Below are positions 6,503-60,300 of a stretch of DNA of 64,000 nt, one piece after another. The stretch's first letter is position 1, and each line of letters starts with the position of its first letter. Both the position numbers and the translations under genes were made by a program. The DNA lies in assembly GCA_937920495.1 (NCBI GenBank), contig CALEUQ010000011.1, positions 62,001 to 126,000 on the forward strand. Direction: 5' to 3'. The notes under the pieces are model-generated. The model made no database searches and was not told where the DNA came from. It was given only the letters and a program-made list of their open reading frames with translations. The stretch comes from an uncultured bacterium (GTDB lineage Bacteria; Spirochaetota; UBA4802; UB4802).

Positions 6503-6579
6503 TGTGGCGATAGTAACATGGCAACAAAATACTTGACGCTAAAGCCATTATGAATAATGTGCATTTGTATAAGAAATGC

Positions 6580-6699
6580 ACTAATAATTCTTTAAAAATA
6601 TTTTGTTAATAAAAAGGTGTACACCCTCGCCCTCTTCGGCGGCGGGGGTGTACACTATGTTTATTATGTTCACAAATTTTATTTAAAGAATAAATCGTG
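6580..6699. repeat. Dispersed 120-bp repeat, copy A, with GC-rich hairpin
   Basis: Copy A aligns without gaps to 53864-53983 with 109 of 120 positions identical by hand count. Its centre (6616-6654) folds into a hairpin with outer arms GTGTACAC/GTGTACAC continued by GC-rich pairs. One arm position is C-G here and T-A in copy B, so pairing is kept. On the minus strand the hairpin is followed by CTTTTTATT, which looks like an intrinsic terminator, although no annotated minus-strand gene ends here. It lies between the ClC gene and leuS. It could be a miniature mobile element or a small RNA; no open reading frame is inside. Confidence 0.85.
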
Positions 6700-6768
6700 T
6701 ATGAAGTGCATAAAACCATGCACACATGTAATGTCACGAGTGTAAAATGTATTATTGGAGGATGATGT

Positions 6769-29762: not shown

Positions 29763-29959
29763 TCTTAGAAATATGCTTGCCAATATGTAAATTGCGTAAT
29801 TAATGTTAAAAAATGTCGCTATTTATTCTTTAAAATTATTATATGAATAATGCAGTTCACAATGAACAATTTTTCTTCAAAAATTATCCTTGAGGGATAA
29901 ATGGTGAAAAAAGAAAAAAAGTAATAATTTACATTTAATAAAGATTGAATGGAGTTGTC

Positions 29960-43875: not shown

Positions 43876-44207
43876 GATCCCCCCGATCAGATAAAAAATA
43901 TAGTATGTGTACAATAATGTCAACAAGTATTTATTCTGTATGCTCTATCCAATAGAAAGGAACTTTTCAGTGTTATTGGATATGTCTTGCAGGCAAACAT
44001 GCTATTGTACAAACATATTTTTACGGAAGGTCATCGTGAAGAAACAACTGACAATTTATTATGTTCACAAATTTTATTTAAGGAATAAATGGTGAAATAG
44101 ATTTATAAAAACAGTATTGAAAATTATGTGATTGTTGTATAGTATTGTTAATAGTAAGTATCTGGTTAAAAAAATATTTCATGAATTATGAATATGGTAA
44201 AAATTGT
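43876..44207. other. 332-bp intergenic region containing the solo repeat end
   Basis: Besides the 42-bp repeat fragment at 44055-44096, I see nothing recognisable. A plus-strand frame of 62 codons crosses this area and the repeat but has no ribosome site and is not taken as a gene. Confidence 0.5.
44055..44096. repeat. Solo right end of the dispersed repeat (copy C)
   Basis: Positions 44055-44096 match the last 42 or so bases of copies A and B (TTTATTATGTTCACAAATTT then AAGGAATAAAT and GTG). The hairpin part is absent. The left boundary falls right after the hairpin-side sequence. Confidence 0.75.
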
Positions 44208-53588: not shown

Positions 53589-54055
53589 AAATTTGCAATA
53601 CATGTACATTATGGTTTATTTTAATAGAGATCTTATATAATAATCGGTTGATATCTTTCTAATTACAATAACAAAAAAAGCTTACTATTTGTTATCTCTA
53701 TACTACTAATCATTAATTTAAAAAACATGGTAAGCAGACGTTTTATGCCACATTGTTAATTCTTGTAACATTCAAAATTATCAAAATTAATTTGACATTT
53801 TTCATAAAGTTTATTTTGTATTACGCAAATAAATACATAAATGTGATTTTTTTAAAATAAATTACTAATAATTCCTTGAAAATATTTTGTTAATAAAAAG
53901 GTGTACATCCCCGCCGCTTTCGGCGGCGGGGATGTACAATATGTTTGTTATGTTCACAAATTTTATTTAAGGAATAAATCGTGAAAATAAAATAAATATA
54001 ACAATACATAAATAATTTTAAAACAAATATAAAAAAGAGGGAGGGAATTGTTGTC
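53589..54055. other. 467-bp intergenic region with repeat copy B
   Basis: The region separates the divergent lipoprotein and AraC genes. It is very AT-rich outside the GC-rich hairpin of repeat copy B (53864-53983). No other gene or RNA is seen. Confidence 0.5.
53864..53983. repeat. Dispersed 120-bp repeat, copy B, with GC-rich hairpin
   Basis: The copy is about 91% identical to 6580-6699 over its full length, with no indels. Its hairpin has a 14-bp perfect stem (arms GTACATCCCCGCCG/CGGCGGGGATGTAC) and a 7-nt loop. Compared with copy A, one pair has changed from C-G to T-A on both sides, and a G-T pair became G-C. It ends 72 bp before the AraC gene. Confidence 0.87.
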
Positions 54056-59136: not shown

Positions 59137-60300
59137 ATGCACAATGAAATGACTATAGATAAATCCGTGGGTAATGTTCACACGCAATATTATACTTTTG
59201 CTGAGCCTCCTGATGAGATGCTGCTTGTATCAGGTAAAAAGCTAGGGCCCATTACACTGGCATATGAAACCTACGGCACACTAAATGAAAACAAGAGTAA
59301 TGCAGTACTAATTTTACACGCCCTTTCAGGTTCAGCCCACGCAGCAGGATACCATTCAGACAATGATCCTTATCCTGGATGGTGGGATCATTATATTGGA
59401 CCGGGAAAAGCGTTTGATACCAATAAATATTTTGTCATCTGTTCCAATGTTATTGGTGGCTGCAGTGGTTCCACCGGCCCCTCATCCATAAATCCTGTTA
59501 CGGGTAAAGAATATGCACTGGATTTTCCCATCGTAACTATTCAGGACATGGTAAATGCACAGCGACATTTGATAGATTATTTAGGGATTGAAAAGCTTTT
59601 AGCTGTTGCTGGTGGCTCAATGGGCGGCATGCAGGCATTACAGTGGTCAATATCATATCCAGAGAGGGTACAATCAGTTATAGCGATAGCAACTGCAGCC
59701 TCACTTTCTGCGCAGGGCATTGCATTTCATGAAGTTGGCAGGCAAGCCATAATGCGCGATCCACACTGGAATAATGGGAACTATTACCACGTAAGCAATC
59801 CCTCCAACGGACTATCGCTTGCTCGAATGATTGGGCATATTACATACCTAAGTGAAAAGCTCATGCATGAAAAATTTGGCAGAAGACTTCAGCAAACAGA
59901 TTTTTTTAAGTTTCAATTTGACCTGGAGTTTGAGGTAGAATCATACCTGCACCATAAAGGAAATGATTTTGTCCAGAGGTTTGATGCAAATTCGTATTTA
60001 TATATTACCAAAGCCATTGACTATTTTGATTTAAAAAATGATTTTGGTGGTGATCTGGCTAATGCATTTGTACATGTAAATTCGGATTATCTAATTATAA
60101 GCTTTTCCTCTGACTGGCTGTATCCAACATCACAGTCACGGGAGATTGTACGAGCATTGCGTATGAACAGCAAAAACGTTGTGTTTACCGAAATCCAGAG
60201 TGATAAGGGACACGATACATTTTTACTTCCAAATGAACAGCTTGAACATAACATTGCTAACTTTTTGAAGAGAGAGTTTGAAAAGGCACATAAAAAATGA
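59137..60300 (+). CDS. metX: Homoserine O-acetyltransferase
   Basis: The 387-residue alpha/beta hydrolase acetylates homoserine for methionine synthesis. The nucleophile serine is in GGSMGGMQALQW, the histidine in KGHDTFLL and the aspartate in FSSDWLYPTSQS. AAGGAG precedes the ATG. It is controlled by the upstream SAM-I riboswitch and overlaps metW by 4 bp (ATGA). Confidence 0.95.
   Translation: MHNEMTIDKSVGNVHTQYYTFAEPPDEMLLVSGKKLGPITLAYETYGTLNENKSNAVLILHALSGSAHAAGYHSDNDPYPGWWDHYIGPGKAFDTNKYFVICSNVIGGCSGSTGPSSINPVTGKEYALDFPIVTIQDMVNAQRHLIDYLGIEKLLAVAGGSMGGMQALQWSISYPERVQSVIAIATAASLSAQGIAFHEVGRQAIMRDPHWNNGNYYHVSNPSNGLSLARMIGHITYLSEKLMHEKFGRRLQQTDFFKFQFDLEFEVESYLHHKGNDFVQRFDANSYLYITKAIDYFDLKNDFGGDLANAFVHVNSDYLIISFSSDWLYPTSQSREIVRALRMNSKNVVFTEIQSDKGHDTFLLPNEQLEHNIANFLKREFEKAHKK

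Follow-up and report, generated by a model that had tools for sequence, protein, structure and literature searches.

Bacterial MITEs derived from insertion sequences have been reviewed, QMITE2 of Coxiella being one example: they are small, carry no gene, have terminal inverted repeats (TIRs) and a strong stem-loop, lie between target duplications at AT-rich intergenic sites and occur in size variants (PMC10969869). Among insertion sequences, the IS4 family is characterized by the YREK motif, and its IS4Sa subgroup comprises YREK-bearing elements of 1150-1750 bp with CA at the ends and duplications of 8-10 bp (PMC2266710). Inverted repeats can also evolve by template switching between their arms, a process that yields matched arm changes together with loop inversion, a ttc/gaa flip being among the listed cases (PMC8604942). 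REP/REPIN sequences, which go with RAYT transposases, are GC-rich intergenic palindromes present in many copies.

Here, we analyzed a repeat found in a stretch of 64,000 nucleotides (hereafter, the window) from an uncultured bacterium, together with the genome to which the window belongs (G000; 3.02 Mb, 86 contigs, ~94% complete) and the draft genomes of other bacteria. The repeat is a new MITE family, ordinary in kind and with an IS4-type partner. It has all the traits of the reviewed MITEs mentioned above; what sets it apart is the central palindrome, which recurs almost unchanged in three MITE families whose ends and target lengths are unrelated. It shares with REP/REPIN the intergenic GC-rich palindrome and the high copy number; here, however, the palindrome is embedded in a longer element that has inverted ends and duplicates its target, and the GTAG/CGTC tag, looked for by eye beside the palindrome, is absent from alignments A1 and A2. 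We consider it highly probable that the repeat is a 121-bp non-autonomous DNA transposon (MITE) served in trans by an IS4-family transposase, its GC palindrome being a shared module whose arms are matched mainly by template switching.

Copies, ends and insertion sites

The original prediction described two 120-bp copies (6580-6699 and 53864-53983), 91% identical without indels, and this was borne out, with 11 of the 120 positions differing. The 120-bp span itself stood, except that the element extends one base further to the left, so that both copies measure 121 bp between imperfect 9-bp duplications (Table 1).

Table 1 Coordinates of the MITE copies and of other features within the window
Feature	Position	Strand	Remark
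MITE copy A, 121 bp	6579..6699	-	minus strand reads CACGATTTATTC...(hairpin)...ATTAGTG
Copy A, left TIR	6579..6595	+	CACTAATAATTCTTTAA
Copy A, right TIR	6683..6699	-	CACGATTTATTCTTTAA (minus strand)
Copy A, central GC palindrome	6617..6655	none	GTGTACACCC..GGGTGTACAC
Copy A, left target duplication	6570..6578	none	TAAGAAATG, 7/9 against the right one
Copy A, right target duplication	6700..6708	none	TATGAAGTG
MITE copy B, 121 bp	53863..53983	-	target duplication 8/9
Copy B, central GC palindrome	53901..53939	none	
Copy B, left target duplication	53854..53862	none	AAAATAAAT
Copy B, right target duplication	53984..53992	none	AAAATAAAA
Solo right arm	44055..44094	-	truncated third copy of the MITE
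Left-arm match, 72%	29804-29850		possibly an old left-end fragment
SAM riboswitch RF00162	58965-59068		91.9 bits; upstream of the ORF below
ORF	59137-60300		reads like homoserine O-acetyltransferase

A search of the whole genome returned dozens of copies instead of only two. A 32-bp right-end pattern, allowing up to three mismatches, matched at least 75 right ends, whereas the reversed control pattern matched none, and BLAST retrieved at least 41 copies (the best 40 of 175 candidates were scored). Most of the places matched by the pattern were fetched, and the element was then modelled. CACTAATAATTCCTTAA and CACGATTTATTCCTTAA form its ends and are inverted repeats of each other, though not perfect ones, with CACTAATAATTCC / CACGATTTATTCC as the TIRs. 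Once duplicates had been removed, 36 of the 56 two-ended copies showed a 9-bp target duplication matching at 8 or more of the 9 positions, 19 of them perfectly, while shifted and cross-copy controls gave 0.3-0.8%; 9 bp is the only duplication length that fits. A sister species (G003), whose contigs often break inside the hairpin, harbors a diverged sibling MITE family with equally well matched duplications in 29 of 35 copies (controls up to 1.1%). Besides, the site upstream of leuS (one locus) is empty in the sister genomes G001 and G003, where the alignment runs across the insertion point, and is more diverged in G004 and G002. The element is multi-copy, shorter than 500 bp and devoid of coding capacity, as expected for a MITE. 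The two similar copies within the window could reflect the simple duplication of a 120-bp intergenic segment. This reading is refuted by the copy number, which runs into the dozens, and by the target duplications and empty sites, and we assign it practically no probability.

In at least 11 of the sibling MITEs of the sister species (L108, L112, L123, L128, L168, L170, L171, L177, L191, L196 and L199), a second element of ~150-200 bp, with ends GGGGNTGTCCCAAAA..TTTTGAGACAACCCC and a GTCATTGCGAGGAACGAAGTGACGAAGCAATCT repeat, is held in or beside the central palindrome, that is, a MITE inside a MITE.

With respect to gene context, the flanking genes are divergent for 35 of 73 classified copies, tandem for 33 and convergent for 5, according to ORF calls from a simple heuristic caller; 7 of 86 copies overlap an ORF. 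Orientation relative to tandem genes is unbiased (19 v 14, p=0.49). On the minus strand the stem is followed by CTTTTTATT, as originally noticed, and this GC stem with its tract in one orientation might suggest a mobile element whose cargo is host-adapted, namely bidirectional transcription terminators or insulators. However, convergent-gene copies are few, orientation bias is lacking, and the forms in G003, G044 and G033 have no consistent U-tract, which makes this explanation unlikely. Insertions tolerated in the AT-rich DNA upstream of genes would give this pattern, which lends no support to a terminator under selection.

An IS4-type insertion sequence with the same ends

Searching the relatives with PF01609 revealed an intact insertion sequence of 1,232 bp in G023 (L325:912-2143). 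Its TIRs, CACTGTTAATTCCTAAAC / CACTATTAATTCCTTAAC, match the MITE ends (CACTRTTAATTCCTWAAC), and it is flanked by a perfect 9-bp duplication, AAATTAATT, which fits the length near 10 bp of IS4-family duplications. The MITE thus shares both its ends and its target length with an IS4-type element. The encoded 371-aa transposase matches NCBIfam NF033592 'IS4 family transposase' (E=8.5e-48, 163 bits, cut-off 115) and PF01609 (87 bits, cut-off 23); a PDB search with it gave no match. The YREK motif, YRERWNIEVVFYWIK, is present in L325:1015-2130, its spacing, read by eye, being the 2/3/6 of the IS4 family. By published description, IS4Sa appears to be the nearest subgroup, given the length, the CA ends, the 9-bp duplication and the combination of DDE and YREK, with the difference that IS4Sa ends (CA------T) mostly conserve a T at position 9, where the G023 insertion sequence has an A (PMC2266710).

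MITE and insertion sequence match only over approximately the outermost 17 bp and differ along the remainder of their arms, and the GC core is not found in the G023 insertion sequence (best match, 7 mismatches in 17). The PF01609 search of G000 and G003 detected nothing. With the G023 transposase as query, a 64-aa decayed fragment of the same protein was found in G000; an intact IS4-type transposase is absent from this ~94% complete genome, and the MITE may consequently not be mobile at present. Remnants of the transposase in G004, G001 and G003, plus one in G023, adjoin the same kind of ends. IS256-type transposases (PF00872) were also considered as mobilizers; G000 has only decayed pieces of them, none near matching ends.

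Y1 elements of the IS200/IS605 type possess neither TIRs nor target duplications. One option of the original prediction was a MITE, non-autonomous and dependent on a transposase encoded beyond the window; this reading agrees with the TIRs, the 9-bp duplications and the IS4-family DDE partner, and is in all probability correct. The same three features make the other proposal, an IS200/IS605 origin, wrong. A central hairpin and a small size are what an IS200/IS605- or REP/RAYT-derived element with a Y1 transposase would also display; such an origin is nonetheless extremely improbable in view of those features and of the missing GTAG tag at the hairpin.

From the sequence comparisons, we propose that the MITE spread through the genome by transposition, landing in AT-rich intergenic DNA with 9 bp of target duplicated, and that it was probably mobilized in trans by an IS4-family transposase, a type that survives in an intact insertion sequence in G023 and as a decayed fragment in G000. 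The copies themselves are now decaying.

Hairpin variation and probable template switching

Between copies A and B, 6 of the 11 differences fall in the hairpin (positions 45, 48, 53, 54, 55 and 69), in agreement with the claim that variation is concentrated there, and the C-G versus T-A stem pair and the G-T versus G-C pair on which preserved pairing had been argued are both present. Preserved pairing is accurate for these two pairs but holds only in part as a general rule, since among 45 copies in G000 the stem differences are mostly pair-breaking or one-sided. In that alignment, 11 of the 17 hairpin pairs vary one-sidedly, and a single pair provides 8 of the 12 double-change cells (C-G to T-A in 7 copies, G-C in one). 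Covariation in G000 is therefore real but thin, and comes mostly from one C-G to T-A pair. In the 33 copies from G003, double-change cells numbered 10, compared with 2.0 after shuffling. Both genomes have the 3-nt loop in two forms, TTC and GAA, in 15 and 9 copies in G000 and in 18 and 13 in G003, with a few duplicates still counted in these figures.

Two explanations have to be weighed. The repeats could be small structured RNAs of one family, or RNA elements acting in cis, with a hairpin kept by RNA selection and a secondary spread. The fold is very stable on both strands, the window copies being far more stable than shuffles (z -7.0 to -9.1), and the two-sided changes in G003 exceed the shuffled expectation fivefold. 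Nevertheless, one-sided changes dominate in G000 and most of its double changes come from one pair, loops in both orientations are predicted by template switching and not by RNA function, and no orientation bias exists. In addition, the repeats have no gathering-level match in Rfam. Finally, the hairpin or core is absent from 9 two-ended copies in G000 (~1/6), of which 7 have target duplications. The RNA option accordingly found little support and we regard it as very improbable, the weak covariation being explained by switching at the DNA level.

It would mainly be template switching during replication that keeps the palindrome arms matched and flips the 3-nt loop. Loops in both orientations are its signature, and RNA-level selection need not be invoked. 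The likeness to template-switch homogenized inverted repeats extends to the matched arm changes, the 3-nt loop inversion and the very same ttc to gaa flip, whereas the present case concerns dispersed copies of a bacterial MITE and is read from patterns rather than from pedigrees (PMC8604942). Markers flanking the hairpin, which could define MITE subfamilies, showed no significant linkage with the C-G/T-A change in these small samples, a result more in keeping with repeated, separate events than with inheritance within a single subfamily. As for core loss, the clearest copy lacking the core has what a deletion between two GTGTACAC repeats would leave.

A GC core common to three MITE families

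Searching 46 genomes of the order brought up related type-A elements in other genera, plus elements with other ends and the same core. The 21-mer CCCGCCGCCTTCGGCGGCGGG, with at most one mismatch, occurs in 12 of the 46, up to 92 times (control, 0), and exact matches were found in 7 of 393 genomes of the phylum, all from the same order. Beyond G000 and G003 this census is a sample, and the background of a one-sided end match in the context classification is 4%. Three types were distinguished. Type A, which is tied to IS4, has ends CAGTAATTATTCC and a 9-bp duplication (8/9 or better in 11 of 21 copies from other genomes). Type B has ends AGACTTGTTGCA and a 3-bp duplication, exact in 13 of 24; type C has ends GTAACTAYTCAGC and an 8-bp duplication, 7/8 or better in 4 of 5. 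The ends of types B and C may resemble IS5- and IS66-type ends. Since the three families differ in ends and target lengths, they presumably depend on different transposases. All three are present in G033.

The palindrome does not belong to the insertion sequence and is a module common to the MITE and to two further families of the same order. L285 (G023:C22) is a chimera whose left arm is of type A and whose right arm is of type B, joined through the GC core; the arms score 24 and 27, where shuffled sequences reach at most 19 and 18. At least one recombination event through the core is therefore probable, although L285 may have arisen by chromosomal rearrangement instead of being a transposing hybrid. 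We tentatively suggest, as a possibility somewhat short of even, that the palindrome is an exchangeable module moving among unrelated MITE families (the IS4-type with 9 bp, the AGACTTGTTGCA-ended with 3 bp and the GTAACTAYTCAGC-ended with 8 bp) via hairpin-mediated template switching or recombination.

GC cores without recognizable MITE ends on both sides were also observed (L243, L253, L260, L290, L297 and L302), some of them keeping one arm. Some of these isolated cores follow immediately upon a stop codon in an intergenic gap. Each core is extended by a complementary AT-rich stem of its own, and cores outside recognized MITEs, for example L243, L290 and L302, keep complementary flanks. When GTDB contigs were scanned for the pattern of the hairpin flanked by GTGTACAC, matches came only from Lentisphaerota, in what belongs to a different element, and the same scan of viral contigs gave no match. 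In Oligosphaera and another Lentisphaerae genome (L101-L106), a different palindrome, TAATCGGTCAGTGTACACCCCGGCG..., is present in several copies and is probably another mobile element.

A core common to unrelated MITEs is not reported in the open-licence papers to which our literature search was limited. One palindrome in three mini-transposon families, within a single order among 393 genomes of the phylum, is unusual, and its sharing and confinement make core exchange between mobile elements testable. For RNA discovery, the repeat illustrates a trap, as repeated DNA can come to covary even when no selection on RNA is at work. If the exchange of the core is true, the MITEs of this bacterial order would consist of swappable ends around a common core.
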